38,811 nucleotides of DNA from Bacillota bacterium. Its GTDB lineage: Bacteria; Bacillota; Dehalobacteriia; UBA4068. The stretch is taken from positions 1 through 38,811 of the forward strand of contig JAFSHU010000002.1 of NCBI GenBank assembly GCA_017440145.1, read 5' to 3'. The translations under genes were made by a program, and so were the position numbers. This document shows positions 20,853 to 27,284 of this stretch, piece after piece (position 1 is the first letter of the stretch; each line of letters begins with the position of its first letter). A model generated the notes under the pieces. It had not been told where the DNA came from and did no database searches. It saw nothing but the letters and a program-made list of their open reading frames with translations.

Positions 20853-21119
20853 TCAGTCCTGCTGCTGCATCTTTTCCCAGGCCAGCTCCACTGCCCGGGA
20901 TAACTGGTCGGAGCAGGAGGTACCCTTGCTTCCGCAAAGGATACCACGGCATTTGTGGATCACATCCTGGTAGCTCAGTCCTTCCACCAGGCTGGCGATT
21001 GCTTTCAGGTTGCCGTTGCAGCCGTTGGTGTATTGTACATTGTGGATCATGCCCTGCTCATCCATATCAAAATCGATCACAGTGGAGCAGGTGCCGCTGG
21101 GATAATATGTAAAACGCAT
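20853..21119 (-). CDS. TSCPD domain protein (TIGR03905-like)
   Basis: A complete 88-residue cysteine-containing protein matching the small TSCPD family, known as a stand-alone protein in anaerobes and as a C-terminal domain of class II ribonucleotide reductases. Visible hallmarks are YYPSGTCSTVIDFD, YTNGCNGNLKAIASLVEGL, CRGILCGSKGTSCSDQLSRAVELA. The four spaced cysteines could bind a metal; no function is established for the stand-alone form. GGAGG precedes the ATG. It is convergent with the NSS gene with 3 bp between stops, and a small GAGCT-GA-AGCTC palindrome (20843-20854) spans both stops. A promoter with two TATAAT boxes lies upstream. Confidence 0.9.
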   Translation of the reverse strand: MRFTYYPSGTCSTVIDFDMDEQGMIHNVQYTNGCNGNLKAIASLVEGLSYQDVIHKCRGILCGSKGTSCSDQLSRAVELAWEKMQQQD

Positions 21120-21152
21120 AATGAACCTCCATGATTATTCTTTGTTTAGAAT

Positions 21153-21194
21153 ATTATAGCATGATTATTATAGCATAATTATTGAAGAAATCAA
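21153..21194 (-). promoter_or_regulatory. Promoter of the TSCPD gene, with a tandem duplication of the -10 region
   Basis: On the minus strand a TTGATT (21189-21194), 16-bp spacer and extended -10 TGCTATAAT are present. The -10 block ATTATAGCATRATTATT (plus strand) occurs twice with a 14-bp period (21153-21169, 21167-21183), giving two extended -10 boxes. The rest of the 21120-21351 gap is A/T-rich with no gene seen. Confidence 0.65.
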
Positions 21195-21351
21195 TATACA
21201 GGAGCTTTTTATCAATATATTATGCAAAACCGTGAAGAGAAGGATTTGAAAGAATAGTTGAGGAGTATGCTTCTATAGCTGGGTTTTTCTTTTTCTTTTT
21301 TCGGGATATTCTCAGAGAACATAACAAAAATAAATTATAAAAATAAAAAAG

Positions 21352-21380
21352 ATGACTTTTCTTGTTCTTCGTGGTACAAT
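21352..21380 (+). promoter_or_regulatory. Promoter of the LysR-type regulator gene
   Basis: ATGACT, 17-bp spacer, TACAAT. The -10 box overlaps the 17-bp dyad also found twice before hydC, which suggests autoregulation. Confidence 0.6.
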
Positions 21381-21394
21381 AAATTTACTTTATC
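21378..21394 (+). promoter_or_regulatory. Putative LysR-box operator 1 at the lysR promoter
   Basis: AATAAATTTACTTTATC, identical at 16 of 17 bases to the reverse complement of a site upstream of hydC. It contains ATAAA-N5-TTTAT and so a T-N11-A LysR box. A second inverted repeat, GATAGG-N6-CCTATC (21395-21412), follows directly. Confidence 0.6.
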
Positions 21395-21482
21395 GATAGG
21401 TTTTTGCCTATCATAGAGATTTATGCTTGTGTGGAACGGATTTTCACGGCAGAGAATTTCTCAGTTACGGAAAGGTGTTGCT

Positions 21483-22385
21483 ATGGATTTTCGTCAGTTG
21501 GAAGCTTTTGTTGCTGTAGTGGAGCTGGCCAGTTTCTCCAAGGCTGGAGAAAAACTCTTTCTGACCCAGCCCACGATCAGTTCGCATATTCATTCTTTGG
21601 AAAAAGAACTGGATCAGCCGCTTTTGATCCGGAACAACAAATCCGTTTATGCGAATGAGGCAGGCCACCGCCTGTTTGATTATGCAGTGCGTATGCTGCA
21701 TCTGCGGGAAGAGGCCATCTCAGCCTTGCTGCAAAATGAGATGGATAGCGGGAGCATCAATATCGCAGCTTCTACCATCCCGGCAAAATACGTTTTGCCC
21801 AGGCTGATTTCCGGCTTTCGGCAGAAGCACCCAAAGATCAGCTTCAGCGTATCCCGCTGTGATGCGGAGGGCATCTGCCAAAAAATACTGAGTGATGAAG
21901 TGAATCTTGGTTTTTCCGCCACATTAATTGATAGCGTTCATTGTTATAATTATCCTATCGCAGTGGATGAGCTGGTCGTGATTGCGCCGAATACTGAGTA
22001 TTACCGGAATCTGGGAAAGGAAGGCTTCCCGATGGAAGCCCTGTATACAGAGCCTTTTCTTTGCCGGCAGCTGGGATCGGATACTCGCTATGAGCTGGAA
22101 AATTACCTCCCCAAATCTCCGAATTGGCATCATTTGAATATCGTCGCGGAAATTGGCGATACGGAAATGCTGCTTCGTTCTGTGGAGGAGGGGATGGGGA
22201 TCGCTGCGGTCTCCAAATATGCGGCAGAGGACTTCAGTCGCTTCAATCGGGTGCTGAGCTTTCCGCTGGAAGGGCAGAGCGCCGCCCGGAAATTATATAT
22301 GGTCCGCAGAAAAAAAGCGAGACTTTCGCAATTTGAACGATCTTTTATTGATTATGTACTTGAACATGTCGAAGATTTGGTGTAG
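21483..22385 (+). CDS. LysR-type transcriptional regulator, probable regulator of the hydrogenase operon
   Basis: A 300-residue LTTR. The N-terminal winged helix-turn-helix is MDFRQLEAFVAVVELASFSKAGEKLF followed by LTQPTISSHIHSLEKELDQPLL; the remaining 200 residues form the periplasmic-binding-like effector domain (STIPAKYVLPRLISGFRQKHP, and later SVEEGMGIAAVSKYAAED). It resembles LTTRs annotated as selenium-metabolism-associated, but the effector is unknown. AAAGGTG precedes ATG 21483; an earlier in-frame ATG at 21423 would add an unrelated 20-residue leader. A terminator follows the gene. The same 17-bp dyad lies over its own promoter and over the hydCBA promoter downstream, so it probably controls both. 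Confidence 0.93.
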   Translation: MDFRQLEAFVAVVELASFSKAGEKLFLTQPTISSHIHSLEKELDQPLLIRNNKSVYANEAGHRLFDYAVRMLHLREEAISALLQNEMDSGSINIAASTIPAKYVLPRLISGFRQKHPKISFSVSRCDAEGICQKILSDEVNLGFSATLIDSVHCYNYPIAVDELVVIAPNTEYYRNLGKEGFPMEALYTEPFLCRQLGSDTRYELENYLPKSPNWHHLNIVAEIGDTEMLLRSVEEGMGIAAVSKYAAEDFSRFNRVLSFPLEGQSAARKLYMVRRKKARLSQFERSFIDYVLEHVEDLV

Positions 22386-22469
22386 AATATAGCTGTATCA
22401 TCAAGTTATCAAAAGGTTGGTCAGAACTTTGCGCCCACGAAAAGCAGACAATCAAATTTTTGCATTGGA

Positions 22470-22512
22470 AACCGCTCTTTATAGAAAGAATCTATAGGGG
22501 CGGTTCTTTTTT
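22470..22512 (+). terminator. Terminator after the LysR-type regulator gene
   Basis: AACCGC pairs with GCGGTT and TATAGA with TCTATA in one interrupted stem with a 5-nt loop, followed by CTTTTTT. Confidence 0.85.
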
Positions 22513-22513
22513 G

Positions 22514-22542
22514 TATCAATATCGATATTATCGATATTGATA
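22514..22542. repeat. Perfect 29-bp palindrome next to the lysR terminator
   Basis: TATCAATATCGATA, one central T, then its exact complement TATCGATATTGATA. It begins at the end of the terminator T-run and carries two ATCGAT cores. It could be an operator or, followed by CTCTTTT, a second weak terminator. Confidence 0.8.
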
Positions 22543-22768
22543 CTCTTTTGAAGCTGGCTATGTCTTGCGGCCATGTTTTCCATGTGTCAAAATAAAGAAG
22601 ACCTGTAAAACTGGGGCGCTGAACGCATAATTATTGCTTTGTTCTGTTTTTATTCAGATCGACAAATTGGATGGATTTGGGTATTTCCCTCTTGTTATAT
22701 GCGTCTAACGGCAGATTTGTCTGACTGCCACTCTGCAGCTGGAAATTTTTAAAAAATTGAATTATGCT

Positions 22769-22797
22769 TTGACAATGAATATATTGTATGATAAAGT
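22769..22797 (+). promoter_or_regulatory. Probable promoter of the hydCBA operon
   Basis: Perfect -35 TTGACA, 17-bp spacer, -10 TAAAGT (4 of 6). The -10 lies inside the first GATAAA-N5-TTTATC operator, so the bound regulator would touch the polymerase site. Confidence 0.55.
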
Positions 22798-22836
22798 AAA
22801 TTTATCATAGAAAAAATCGGATAAAGCAAATTTATC
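22790..22836 (+). promoter_or_regulatory. Two LysR-box operators upstream of hydC
   Basis: GATAAAGTAAATTTATC (22790-22806) and GATAAAGCAAATTTATC (22820-22836) differ at one base and start 30 bp apart, close to three helical turns, so two dimers could lie on the same DNA face. The third copy is at the lysR promoter. Confidence 0.65.
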
Positions 22837-22921
22837 GTTGTTTTTCCCCGATCAAAATGTTCTGTGTGCATGAAGTTCTGTTGGATCGCCCTTGTTCGGG
22901 CCTTTGTATCGGTTTCATTGT

Positions 22922-22976
22922 TTTGTGTTCCTTTGCTTTCATTGGCCGCTTGCTTCTAAGCCGGCGGGAACACAAA
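22922..22976 (+). ncRNA. Structured leader hairpin of the hydCBA transcript
   Basis: A perfect 10-bp stem (TTTGTGTTCC at 22922-22931 with GGAACACAAA at 22967-22976) encloses a second helix GCC-GCTT/AAGC-GGC with one bulged base. No U-tract follows, so it is not a terminator. It matches no riboswitch I recognise. Confidence 0.45.
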
Positions 22977-23089
22977 TATTATTTATAGAAAGTTTTTATT
23001 TTGAAAGAAAGCTAGTTTTCTCTGTTGCATGCAAATCAGCTGCAGCAGAAAGGTTTAAACAAACTGGGCAAAATCTAGGGAGGTAAAAA

Positions 23090-23590
23090 ATGAGCGAACA
23101 CACTGATTGCTGCTTCTGTGCTGCCAACATGGACGAGCAGGCCAAGTACGAGCAGATCGCACAAGTGATCGATACGTACAAAGAAAAAGAGGGTAGCCTG
23201 ATCATGGTGCTGCACTCTGCACAGCAGATCTACGGCTACCTGCCGCTGGAACTGCAGAAATTTATTGCTGACCGGATGGGGCTTCCCCTTTCTGAAGTTT
23301 ATGGCGTTGTCAGCTTCTATTCCTTCTTCTCCATGACTGAGAGAGGCAGACATACCATCCGCATCTGCCTGGGTACTGCTTGCTACGTACGCGGCGGTAA
23401 AAAGCTGGTGGATGCTCTGGAAGAAAAACTCCAGGTGAAGGTCGGCGGCGTTACCGCAGATAAGAAATTCACCCTGGAAGTGGCTCGCTGCATCGGTGCT
23501 TGCGGCCTGGCTCCTGCAATCATGGTGGACAATGACGTTTATAAAACGATGAGCCCTGCTACTTTGGACAGCATGCTCAATCAGTATTAA
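23090..23590 (+). CDS. hydC: Electron-bifurcating [FeFe] hydrogenase, gamma subunit (NuoE-like)
   Basis: A 166-residue thioredoxin-like [2Fe-2S] subunit of the cytosolic trimeric hydrogenase. Known enzymes couple NADH and reduced ferredoxin oxidation to hydrogen formation, or use NADP. The cluster ligands are Cys93, Cys98, Cys134 and Cys138 (CLGTACYVRGG and CIGACGLAP), the classical NuoE spacing; MVLHSAQQIYGYLP and GVVSFYSFF precede them. The N-terminus has an extra Cys cluster, CCFC (residues 7-10), that is not part of the usual site and may be incidental. AGGGAGGT lies upstream. It is the first of three tightly spaced genes. Confidence 0.94.
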   Translation: MSEHTDCCFCAANMDEQAKYEQIAQVIDTYKEKEGSLIMVLHSAQQIYGYLPLELQKFIADRMGLPLSEVYGVVSFYSFFSMTERGRHTIRICLGTACYVRGGKKLVDALEEKLQVKVGGVTADKKFTLEVARCIGACGLAPAIMVDNDVYKTMSPATLDSMLNQY

Positions 23591-23606
23591 ACAGGAGGTG
23601 GAAAAT

Positions 23607-25478
23607 TTGGTTACCAAGATCAATTCTATCAATGACCTGAACCAGATCAAAGCGGCTTATGAAGCAGAATTGGGCAAATATAAGCATCAGATCCTTCTCT
23701 GCGCCGGCGCCGGCTGCATCTCCTGCGATTGCGGAAAAGTCCGCGATGCCGTCGTGGCTGAGCTGGAAAAACAGGGTTTGGCTGACAGCGTAAAACTGAT
23801 CGAAACCGGCTGCATCGGTACCTGTGCTCTGGGTCCCGTTGTTCTGATTCTGCCGGAGCGCACTTTCTATGTACAGATCACCCCCGAAAAGGTGCCTGCA
23901 CTGATCGAAAGCCATATCGCCAAGGGCGAAATCATGGAAAAATATACCTTCCAGGATAAGCTCACCGGCGAATTCATTCCCTGCATCGATGATATCCCCT
24001 TCTTCAAAGAACAGGTTCGCATCGCCCTGCGGAACTGCGGTGCCATCGAGTATGCTTCTCTGGAAGCTTACATTGCAAACGGCGGCTACTACGCTGCTGA
24101 AAAGGCGCTGACCTCCATGTCTGCCAAAGATGTGGTGGACGAAGTCAAGGCCTCCGGTCTGCGTGGCCGTGGCGGCGGCGGTTTCCCCACCGGCGTCAAA
24201 TGGGAAGCCGGCTATAATGCAAAAGGCGACCGGAAATTCATCGTCTGCAATGCGGACGAAGGCGATCCCGGCGCATTCATGGATCGTTCCGTCATCGAAG
24301 GCGATCCCCACAACCTGATCGAAGGTATGATCCTGGGTGGCTATGCCATCGGCGCTACCAAGGGTTATGTATACATCCGCGCCGAATACCCCATCGCTGT
24401 TGACCGTCTGGATGTTGCCATTGCCCAGGCCAGAGAAGCTGGTCTGCTGGGCGGCAAGCTCTTCGGCACGGATTTCGAATTTGATCTGGAAATCCGCATC
24501 GGCGCCGGCGCTTTCGTTTGCGGCGAAGAAACCTCTCTGATGGCCTCCATTGAAGGTCAGCGCGGCGAACCCCGCCAGAAACCGCCGTTCCCCTTCCAGA
24601 GCGGTCTCTTTGGTTGCCCCACCATCATTAACAACGTGGAAACCTTCGCCAACATCCCGGCCATCATTAAGGATACCGCTGCGGAATTTGCCAAAGTCGG
24701 TACGGAAAAAGCCAAAGGCACGAAGGTCTTTGCGCTGGCCGGTGATATTGTCAACTCCGGTATTATCGAAGTTCCGATCGGTACCCCCATGCGCCGCATC
24801 ATCTTTGATATCGGCGGCGGCATGATCGGTGGCCGTGAATTCAAAGCTGCCCAGGTCGGCGGCCCCTCCGGCGGCTGCATCACCAAAGAAAACCTGGATG
24901 TTCCCATGGAATATGATGCCCTGATCGCTCTGGGCGCTATGATGGGCTCCGGCGGCTTGATCGCCATGAACGATGAAACCTGCATGGTGGATACCGCCCG
25001 CTTCTTCATGGATTTCATTCAGGATGAATCCTGCGGCAAGTGCGCGGCCTGCCGTATCGGCACCAAACGCATGCTGGAAATGCTGATCCGCCTCACCAAG
25101 GGCAAAGGCGAGCCCGGCGATGTGGAACGTCTGCTGGAACTGGGCCAGGTGGTCAAAGATACCGCTATGTGCGGCCTTGGTCAGACTGCTCCCAACCCCA
25201 TCATCTCCACCATCAGCAATTTCCGTGATGAGTATGACGCACATATCGAAGACCATCGCTGCCCGGCCGGTGTCTGCCGCGCTCTGACCGTCTTTGAAAT
25301 CGATCCGCAGTCCTGCCTTGGCTGCACGCTCTGCGCCATCAACTGCCCCGTGAACGCCATCTCCGGCGAACGCAAATCCCCGCATTACATTGATCCTGCT
25401 CTGTGCATTGGCTGCGGCGTCTGCCGTGACAACTGCCGTCCGAATGCAATTCATCCGACCAAACGGGAGGTGCTGTAA
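23607..25478 (+). CDS. hydB: Electron-bifurcating [FeFe] hydrogenase, NuoF-like flavoprotein subunit
   Basis: A 623-residue flavoprotein where NAD(P)H is oxidised. Order of domains: an N-terminal thioredoxin-like [2Fe-2S] fold (Cys residues in CAGAGCISCDC and TGCIGTCALGP), the NuoF FMN/NADH domain with GLRGRGGGGFPTG (residues 184-196), NADEGDPGAFMDRSVIEGDP and CGEETSLMASIEGQRGEPR, a [4Fe-4S] site SCGKCAACRIGT, and two C-terminal [4Fe-4S] ferredoxin motifs (CLGCTLCAINCP, CIGCGVCRDNCRP). I chose TTG 23607, because AGGAGG (23593-23598) is at proper spacing; a GTG at 23598 overlaps that site. It lies 16 bp after hydC and 3 bp before hydA. Confidence 0.95.
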   Translation: MVTKINSINDLNQIKAAYEAELGKYKHQILLCAGAGCISCDCGKVRDAVVAELEKQGLADSVKLIETGCIGTCALGPVVLILPERTFYVQITPEKVPALIESHIAKGEIMEKYTFQDKLTGEFIPCIDDIPFFKEQVRIALRNCGAIEYASLEAYIANGGYYAAEKALTSMSAKDVVDEVKASGLRGRGGGGFPTGVKWEAGYNAKGDRKFIVCNADEGDPGAFMDRSVIEGDPHNLIEGMILGGYAIGATKGYVYIRAEYPIAVDRLDVAIAQAREAGLLGGKLFGTDFEFDLEIRIGAGAFVCGEETSLMASIEGQRGEPRQKPPFPFQSGLFGCPTIINNVETFANIPAIIKDTAAEFAKVGTEKAKGTKVFALAGDIVNSGIIEVPIGTPMRRIIFDIGGGMIGGREFKAAQVGGPSGGCITKENLDVPMEYDALIALGAMMGSGGLIAMNDETCMVDTARFFMDFIQDESCGKCAACRIGTKRMLEMLIRLTKGKGEPGDVERLLELGQVVKDTAMCGLGQTAPNPIISTISNFRDEYDAHIEDHRCPAGVCRALTVFEIDPQSCLGCTLCAINCPVNAISGERKSPHYIDPALCIGCGVCRDNCRPNAIHPTKREVL

Positions 25479-25481
25479 TTC

Positions 25482-27284
25482 ATGAACATTAAACTGACGA
25501 TTAACGGTATCCCCTGCGAAGCGCCTCAGGGCAGCACGATCCTGCAGGCTGCTAAGCTGAACGGTATCCATATCCCCACTCTGTGCTATCTGGAAGGCAT
25601 CCATAAATTCGGTACCTGCCGTATCTGCGTTGTTGAAGTAGAAGGCGCCCGCAATCTGCAGGCCTCCTGCATGGTGGAAGCCAAAGACGGTATGGTCATC
25701 CACACCAACAGCAAACGCGTCCGCGATGCCCGCAAGGTTATGTATCAGCTGATCGTTTCCGATCATAACCAGGACTGCCTGGCCTGCGACCGCAACCAGG
25801 ACTGCGAACTGCAGGCGCTCGGTCGTGAACTGGGTGTCACCGATAACCCCTATTACGGTGAAAAGAACGAAAACGGCATTGATATCAGTGAATCCGTCAC
25901 CCGTGATATGACCAAGTGCATCCTCTGCCGCCGCTGTGTCAGCGTCTGCAACAATATCCAGGGTGTTGGCGTTCTGAATGCCGAAAACCGCGGCTTCTCC
26001 ACCATCATCGCTCCTGCTGCCAACCAGCCTCTGGGCGCTTCTGACTGCGCTTTCTGCGGCCAGTGCACCGTGGTTTGCCCTGTTGGCGCTCTGAAAGAAA
26101 CCAGCCATCAGGAACGCGTTTGGGCCGCTCTCAATGACCCGAACAAATATGTCATCGTCCAGCCCGCTCCCGCCGTCCGCGTTGGCATCGGCGAATGCTT
26201 CGGCCTGGAACCCGGCACCAGCCAGACCGGCCGTTTGGTCACTGCTCTGCGTCGCTTGGGCTTTGATGATGTCTTTGATACCAACTGGGCTGCAGACCTG
26301 ACCATCATGGAAGAAGGCACTGAATTCCTCCAGCGCGTCAAGGCTGCTGTCACCGGCGGCAAAGCTGTTCTGCCCATGGCAACCAGCTGCTCCCCCGGCT
26401 GGGTCAAATTCATTGAAAACAATTTCCCGGATCAGCTGGGCCATCTGTCCTCCTGCAAATCCCCCCATATGATGATGGGTGCCGTTCTGAAATCCTACTA
26501 TGCGAAGAAGATCGGCAAGAAGCCGGAAGACATCTATGTCGTCTCCATCATGCCCTGCACCGCCAAGAAGACCGAAATCGCCCGTCCCGAAATGTACAAT
26601 GACGGCGTTCCGAATGTCGATGCAGTTCTGACCGTCCGCGAACTGGGCGATATGGTGAAATCTGCCGGTATCGACTTCCTGGCTCTGCCGGAAGGCGAAT
26701 TCGATTCTCCGCTGGGCATGTCCACTGGCGCAGCCGATATCTTCGGCCTCACCGGCGGCGTTATGGAAGCTGCTCTGCGTACCGTTTATGAAATCATCAC
26801 CGGCCGTGAGCTGCCCTGGCCCGATCTGCATGTTCCGCCCATCGTTGGTCTGGAGCAGATCAAGGAAGCTACCATCAAGCTGGAAGATGTGAAACCTGAA
26901 TGGAAGATCTTGGAAGGCTTCGAGGTCAACATCGCTGTTACCAGCGGCCTGGAAGGCGCCCGCATCATCATGGACCAGGTCAAAGCCGGCACCTGCAAAT
27001 ACCACTTCTTCGAAGTCATGGGTTGCCCCGGCGGCTGCATCACCGGTGGTGGCCAGCCCCGTCCGAAGGACATCTTCGAAGCCCGGAAAAAACGTATGGA
27101 AGCCCTCTATGCCGAAGATGAAGGCAAGGCTCTGCGTAAATCCCATGAGAACCCCGCTCTCATCGAATTCTACAAAGAATGGGGCGAACCCTGCGGCCAT
27201 AATTCTCATGAATACCTGCATACCCACTATGTACCCCGCGGCAAATACAATGACCTCACCGAAGAGACCTTCGTTGTAAAATAA
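25482..27284 (+). CDS. hydA: Electron-bifurcating [FeFe] hydrogenase, catalytic subunit
   Basis: A 600-residue hydrogenase with the H-cluster. N-terminal [2Fe-2S] domain (Cys35, Cys46, Cys49, Cys63), a His-Cys [4Fe-4S] site (His95, Cys99, Cys102, Cys108), two ferredoxin clusters (CILCRRCVSVC, CAFCGQCTVVC), then the H-domain: L1 TSCSPGW (301-307), L2 MPCTAKK (from 357), L3 FFEVMGCPGGCITGGGQP (about 509-526). L1 has Ser where many monomeric enzymes have a second Cys; I recall this variant from trimeric enzymes. The C-terminus HNSHEYLHTHYVPR resembles HndD-type subunits; there is no extra [2Fe-2S] domain as in some Thermotoga HydA. A GGGAGG site inside the hydB end drives it. Maturase genes are not in the window. 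Confidence 0.97.
   Translation: MNIKLTINGIPCEAPQGSTILQAAKLNGIHIPTLCYLEGIHKFGTCRICVVEVEGARNLQASCMVEAKDGMVIHTNSKRVRDARKVMYQLIVSDHNQDCLACDRNQDCELQALGRELGVTDNPYYGEKNENGIDISESVTRDMTKCILCRRCVSVCNNIQGVGVLNAENRGFSTIIAPAANQPLGASDCAFCGQCTVVCPVGALKETSHQERVWAALNDPNKYVIVQPAPAVRVGIGECFGLEPGTSQTGRLVTALRRLGFDDVFDTNWAADLTIMEEGTEFLQRVKAAVTGGKAVLPMATSCSPGWVKFIENNFPDQLGHLSSCKSPHMMMGAVLKSYYAKKIGKKPEDIYVVSIMPCTAKKTEIARPEMYNDGVPNVDAVLTVRELGDMVKSAGIDFLALPEGEFDSPLGMSTGAADIFGLTGGVMEAALRTVYEIITGRELPWPDLHVPPIVGLEQIKEATIKLEDVKPEWKILEGFEVNIAVTSGLEGARIIMDQVKAGTCKYHFFEVMGCPGGCITGGGQPRPKDIFEARKKRMEALYAEDEGKALRKSHENPALIEFYKEWGEPCGHNSHEYLHTHYVPRGKYNDLTEETFVVK

Follow-up and report, generated by a model that had tools for sequence, protein, structure and literature searches.

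Organization of the locus

The window analyzed here, a stretch of 38,811 nucleotides from a Bacillota bacterium, carries a gene for a LysR-type regulator followed on the same strand by hydC, hydB, and hydA, with three closely similar 17-bp repeats at the promoter-like sequences upstream of the regulator and of hydC (Table 1). The start of the regulator was set at 21483 and not at the upstream ATG at 21423, because both the family model and the relatives begin at 21483. The catalytic subunit of the hydrogenase scores 846.9 bits on NF040763 (cut-off 765). With the order hydC-hydB-hydA and an A6 catalytic subunit present, the operon is assigned from its sequence to the HydABC-type [FeFe] hydrogenases of group A6, bifurcating-type, the NuoE- and NuoF-like partners scoring below the cut-offs of the Nuo models.

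Table 1. Coordinates of the genes and noncoding features at the locus
Feature	Position	Strand	Description
Regulator core promoter	21352-21380	+	ATGACT-N17-TACAAT, 9/12, TG before -10
17-bp repeat copy 3	21378-21394	-	- strand reads GATAAAGTAAATTTATT; covers the -10 and start of the regulator promoter
LysR-type regulator	21483-22385	+	NF040786 (LysR_Se/HrsM type); PF00126 and PF03466
20-mer	22519-22538		ATATCGATATTATCGATATT, identical in the sister species; core of a perfect 31-bp palindrome (22513-22543)
Second conserved noncoding block	22622-22640		AACGCATAATTATTGCTTT; 17-base windows with 15 identical bases in the sister species
hydCBA core promoter	22769-22797	+	TTGACA-N17-TAAAGT, 10/12, TG before -10
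17-bp repeat copy 1	22790-22806	+	GATAAAGYAAATTTATC; overlaps the -10 of the hydrogenase promoter
17-bp repeat copy 2	22820-22836	+	GATAAAGYAAATTTATC type; centre ~25 bases downstream of the probable start, 30 bp from copy 1
hydC	23090-23590	+	NuoE-like thioredoxin-type 2Fe-2S subunit; 163/166 residues identical in the sister species
hydB	23598-25478	+	NuoF-like flavoprotein subunit
hydA	25482-27284	+	Group A6 [FeFe] hydrogenase; no in-frame stop (no selenocysteine)

A scan of the region returned 10 promoter-like sites against 4.5 in shuffled sequence. The -10 boxes named in the initial annotation, TACAAT (21375-21380) and TAAAGT (22792-22797), are present as claimed. Both core promoters recur in the sister species, G001, the one further species of this genus in the genome listing, with TTGACA-N18-TAAAGT before hydCBA and ATGACT-N17-TAAAAT before the regulator. 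Transcription of hydCBA would start near 22804, 7 bases behind the -10 box, giving a leader of ~284 bases before hydC. No Rfam family reaches its gathering score over 21000-23200, where two weak matches fall below it, and the 284-nt leader folds somewhat better than shuffled sequences (z = -2.35, with 5 of 200 shuffles equally good).

Three repeats on two promoters

The coordinates given for the three 17-mers in the initial annotation are all exact, with copy 3 matching at 16 of 17 bases on the other strand, and the repeats do flank a LysR-family gene that adjoins hydCBA. Copies 1 and 2 differ at 1 of 17 bases, as do copies 1 and 3, and copies 2 and 3 differ at 2 of 17. The arms of copy 1 are longer than first noted, forming 9 perfect base pairs (TATGATAAA/TTTATCATA, 22787-22809). 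With a start near 22804, copy 1 would span about -14 to +3 of hydCBA and copy 2 about +17 to +33; copy 3 lies across the start region of the regulator gene, its first three bases being part of the -10 box.

A trio of such likeness was reproduced in 0 of 400 whole-region and 0 of 400 120-base-block dinucleotide shuffles of the two intergenic regions, in a test for which the regions and the motif length were picked once the motif was already known. A pair at up to one mismatch arose within the hydrogenase intergene alone in 1 of 400 shuffles of either kind, and between both regions in 2 of 400 (whole region) and 7 of 400 (120-base blocks). In the draft assembly, which has 1,587,371 bases and is 84% complete, these three places are the only ones that match the 17-mer at up to one mismatch; two further matches at two mismatches both lie inside mechanically listed open frames, one of them of 165 amino acids and with no Pfam match. 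The repeats are real, beyond chance, and confined to this locus at up to one mismatch.

The genome search suggested for the motif gave a specific answer with the full 17-mer and an unspecific one with the bare dyad: GATAAAN5TTTATC at up to one mismatch is met at 11 places, three of them at the locus, versus five for the reversed pattern, so that the dyad alone is no specific word. The LysR box of the T-N11-A form claimed for the repeat is formally there, but it is held by 40% of all 17-mers in the hydrogenase intergene and by 49% upstream of the regulator, and it is therefore uninformative.

Conservation in the relatives

Over the compared stretch the sister genome and the L031 record are one and the same (2,900 of 2,900 bases). 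The sister shows the same order of genes (transporter, TSCPD gene, regulator, hydC, hydB, and hydA), with identities of 589/600 for hydA and 606/626 for hydB, and of 233/300 for the regulator, including 58/65 in its HTH part. Identity between window and sister is 57 of 99 at the fourfold sites of the regulator gene and averages 45-48% in the noncoding regions, which shows that sequence free of selection has diverged well. Each of copies 1 and 2 is identical at 10 of 17 bases, a level that 35% of noncoding windows reach; copy 3 is identical at 14 of 17, a level reached by 1.2% of noncoding windows, and it shares the best conservation among the noncoding 17-mers upstream of the regulator gene. 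Part of this conservation of copy 3 is the overlap with the -10 box. The initial annotation had named a lack of conservation at orthologous loci as refuting its reading, and the two hydrogenase copies do show such a lack, standing at background in the one sister species compared.

No perfect dyad with 6-bp arms and a spacer of 3-9 bases was found at the hydrogenase promoter of the sister; the hydrogenase intergene of that species holds five perfect 6-bp-arm dyads, at the terminator, the palindrome, and the leader. When the motif was relaxed to the form at the sister's regulator promoter, matches at up to two mismatches at the locus were limited to that promoter, with none at the sister's hydrogenase promoter. 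The pair of repeats is also absent from 18 further hydC upstream stretches of the family (20 such loci, with L073 and L079 left out), where the best likeness to the 17-mer is one with three mismatches, 53 bases before hydC in G003, and a few likenesses with four mismatches occur elsewhere. The regulator itself lies within 1.5 kb upstream of hydC at 2 of 22 hydC loci, those of the window's genome and of the sister, in a set that includes several loci truncated at contig ends and many distant paralogs. On the reading proposed below, the hydrogenase copies would be a recent, lineage-specific addition. The HTH parts of the two regulators differ at two neighboring places (SSHIH versus SAHIN), which makes a joint change of regulator and site possible, though unproven.

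A regulator of the selenium family

The regulator scores 296.4 bits on NF040786 (cut-off 250) and its counterpart in the sister 293.3. The model is broad, passing four regulators of the window's genome (contigs C59, C79, C130, and C133, in 1.6 Mb), one of them merely 33% identical; the other three score 282.0 (C130), 285.2 (C133), and 277.9 (C79), and the C130 gene is found between yedF/activase and a double-cubane reductase. The equation of NF040786 with LysR_Se is drawn from the name of the model and from gene neighborhoods. In a tree of 40 rows the window regulator and that of the sister group together (100/100), then with those of G002, G014, and G018 (99/95), and these five then join G003 and the C130 and C133 paralogs (99/96).

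In the four nearest tree rows outside the genus (G002, G014, G018, and G003), the regulator is divergent from selD in 4 of 4. Members of the family often lie beside selD, yedE, or yedF, whereas in the genus of the window the gene is beside hydCBA instead: no selenium genes were found near the regulator at the window locus, and selD is on another contig (C54). Among the 45 regulator loci tested, which include five distant LysR proteins (L052-L056), 16 have selD, yedE, or yedF in the flanks (≤1.5 or 5 kb), a count in which one case is a short yedE piece and one locus (L013 and L031) is counted twice. The window's genome has a SelB at 386.8 bits, over the cut-off, and a SelD over its cut-off with one in-frame TGA; the sister has a SelD with an in-frame TGA, and its best selB match, at 191.1 bits, is below the cut-off in a draft that is 84% complete. 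From model scores and neighborhoods, the regulator is assigned to the selenium family, sitting beside a hydrogenase in this genus.

A second genus brings the same kinds of genes together: in G002 one 14-kb stretch (L149:1900-13117) carries a hydrogenase operon, a DJ-1-like gene, selD, the regulator, ahcY, and yedE, the operon being composed of NuoE- and NuoF-like subunits and a group A [FeFe] hydrogenase that scores over TIGR02512 and below the A6 cut-off. In G014 a contig of 4.2 kb has the regulator, selD, and a hydA-like piece containing one in-frame TAA. No hydrogenase was found beside the regulators of the remaining fetched loci.

With respect to selenium-dependent counterparts, none of the two [FeFe] hydA matches and none of the two partial PF00374 matches (69/508 positions) in the window's 84% complete genome has an in-frame stop. 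A molybdopterin oxidoreductase of the formate dehydrogenase type was considered as selenium partner and dropped, PF00384 matching in 0 of 5 genomes and in 11 of 14 controls. A site for the motif upstream of selD was likewise dropped, the likeness there having four mismatches, and the word ATATCRATAT, tried as common to other NF040786 promoters, gave no consistent pattern over ten loci. We also noticed a conserved block upstream of selD in both species of the genus (GGAAGCCCAAGTTTTATAGAAAAAGCRAATATT; L156:1243-1275 and L159:1243-1275) that is a candidate selenium-regulator site.

Relation to HrsM and a possible circuit

The LysR_Se subfamily has been named before, with the archaeal HrsM counted as its ortholog (PMC5322559), a link that is repeated in PMC9312934. 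PMC5322559 states that, in the presence of available selenium, HrsM can act as a repressor of selenium-free hydrogenases, and it suggests selenophosphate as the effector. The same paper reports that selenoproteins and Cys homologs alike were lowered when HrsM was disrupted in M. maripaludis, so that HrsM may be no plain repressor. PMC11097638 describes HrsM as a repressor that binds the frc/vhc intergene and gives its signal as unknown. The initial annotation presented the link between regulator and hydrogenase as apparently undescribed; in the archaeal member of the selenium-LysR group, described as repressing selenium-free hydrogenases (PMC5322559, PMC11097638), there is a precedent. Within the literature searched, to the extent that the texts were accessible, no LysR regulator is named for a bifurcating HydABC and selenium control of hydrogenases appears for methanogens only. 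Candidate reports of a LysR-hydABC link were set aside, as the portions available concern the [NiFe] HydABC of Campylobacterota, or treat HydABC and a selenium-cluster lysR separately.

The locus resembles the HrsM system of Methanococcus in having a LysR protein of a selenium-associated subfamily, a hydrogenase without selenocysteine, and a proposed repression. HrsM is archaeal and acts on the selenium-free frc and vhc [NiFe] hydrogenases, which have selenocysteine isoforms, whereas the locus is bacterial, with an [FeFe] hydrogenase of bifurcating type and no selenocysteine isoform seen; the likeness rests on how HrsM has been described.

Classic LysR regulators recognize a T-N11-A box, control their own gene, and activate from a site near -65. 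The locus agrees with this scheme in the formal T-N11-A dyad and in the site over the regulator's own promoter, and departs from it at the hydrogenase, where the sites lie over the -10 box and downstream, the place of a repressor, and where copies 1 and 2 are not conserved. Sites over the -10 box and downstream of the start therefore fit a repressor better than a classic LTTR activator.

On this basis our leading, still tentative reading is that a single local regulator uses the three 17-mers as operator-type sites, and that this regulator is most likely the selenium-type LysR protein whose gene lies between them. The repeats, their non-chance occurrence, the promoter-like sequences, and the identities of the genes are observed; for the binder, the sign, and the ligand of such a circuit we infer the following. 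The regulator bound at copy 3 would cover the -10 and start of its own promoter, resulting in negative autoregulation, and it would bind cooperatively at copies 1 and 2, which are about three helical turns apart. Occupation of both would cover the -10 of hydCBA and the early transcribed region and thereby shut out RNA polymerase. By analogy with HrsM, this repression would take place when selenium is plentiful, perhaps sensed as selenophosphate. If the regulator binds here, repression with negative autoregulation is the most likely outcome, and selenium status is, by analogy within the family, the likely signal.

A local, lineage-specific repressor circuit of the HrsM type beside a bifurcating-type hydrogenase is thus plausible and, as a control circuit, unproven. 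It is favored by the non-chance repeats on both core promoters flanking the regulator, by the selenium-family identity of the latter, by SelB and SelD in the same genome, by the position next to selD in the nearest relatives outside the genus, by the 14/17 conservation of copy 3, by the hydrogenase precedent, and by the clustering of such genes in a second genus. Against it stand the loss of the hydrogenase copies in the sister despite a nearly unchanged HTH part (58/65), the perfectly conserved and clearly constrained element at 22519-22538, which competes for the role, the three additional NF040786 regulators of the genome, and the lack of any selenocysteine form of the hydrogenase among those seen. 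The autoregulated LTTR controlling the hydrogenase, as initially proposed, is partly supported, by the repeats on both promoters and by the LysR gene beside hydCBA, and is weakened by the missing conservation of copies 1 and 2 in the sister. The wider proposal, that of a bacterial counterpart of HrsM in which a selenium-sensing LysR protein represses a bifurcating [FeFe] hydrogenase and itself through species-specific double operators, with fast operator turnover and gene linkage kept, we regard as doubtful. If true, it would tie the hydrogen metabolism of this anaerobe lineage to the supply of selenium. In both species of the genus a LysR gene of the selenium type is fixed next to hydCBA, and in a related genus a single stretch unites such a gene with selD, yedE, and a further hydCBA; hydrogen metabolism and a trace element are thereby connected in a way that can be tested.

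Alternative sites and binders

A different element may be the one through which the regulator acts. The site proper would then be the palindrome at 22513-22543, which has ATATCGATATTATCGATAT as its core and stands ~230 bases before the -35 of the hydrogenase promoter, and the 17-mers would be secondary or species-specific. Compared up to their last 60 bases, the two hydrogenase intergenes have no exact word in common that is longer than its 20-mer; 300 shuffled pairs reach at most 15 bases (mean 10), and the region averages 48% identity. Each of the two genomes has a single exact copy of the 19-base core, and the four places with three mismatches across both genomes are all in long open frames. 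That every base is identical, with no paired changes, is suggestive of a protein site. On the other side, the distance from the promoter is large for a LysR protein, going by the usual geometry of the class, and the element was not found in the regulator's own promoter; it also comes immediately after the poly-T stretch that ends the regulator's apparent terminator, and its own score is that of a terminator-like hairpin, so that it may be a second terminator. The T-N11-A dyad of 6-N5-6 shape that it holds means little by itself. Taken together, we consider this alternative unlikely, though worth keeping in view. A second conserved block (22622-22640) was observed between the regulator terminator and the hydrogenase promoter.

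The 17-mers may also be operators for a regulator that is not linked to the locus and that controls both the hydrogenase and the regulator genes; a redox or metal regulator would be an example, as would any of the three further NF040786 proteins. Since the genome has four NF040786 regulators, another of these could be the binder, and exact copies of the core AAGYAAATTTAT outside the locus leave room for a different one: the core is found six times in the window's genome and four times in the sister, compared with none for the reversed control in both. Three of the six are at the locus; of the others, one precedes a rubrerythrin gene, one is in the leader of the C133 NF040786 regulator, and one is in a leader before trpB, the last being common to the sister. 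These outside places lack the full 17-mer, having at least three mismatches to it, and their distances to promoter-like boxes differ. No specific protein is named by this explanation, which we hold to be rather improbable. A regulon defined by the motif was also sought and rejected: looser matches, inspected at 14 outside loci with a mechanical list of frames and for some neighbors with Pfam, are mostly in open frames and otherwise between genes without shared function, one three-mismatch match upstream of the rubrerythrin gene being the exception.

That the repeats are no operators at all, but AT-rich promoter sequence made alike by local duplication or drift with selection on the -10 boxes only, is quite improbable, given that the trio was reproduced in 0 of 800 shuffles, that the perfect arms of copy 1 reach beyond its -10 box, and that copy 2 overlaps no -10 box, even though the sister's hydrogenase promoter lost the repeats yet keeps its -35 and -10, copies 1 and 3 overlap -10 boxes, and the two regions are 63% and 70% A+T versus 46% for the window.

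Two further arrangements came to our attention in the sequences compared. In the sister, two copies of AAATAAATWTGCTTAAT flank a TTGACA/TATAAT promoter before genes that were recognized by eye as ABC-transporter-like (L168:1499-1590). In L173:1480-1700 and L170:1480-1700, a conserved short leader peptide ending in Trp and a hairpin with a T run precede the trpB-bearing frame (TIGR00263, 536.5 bits), an arrangement that looks like a trp attenuator and gave no Rfam match.
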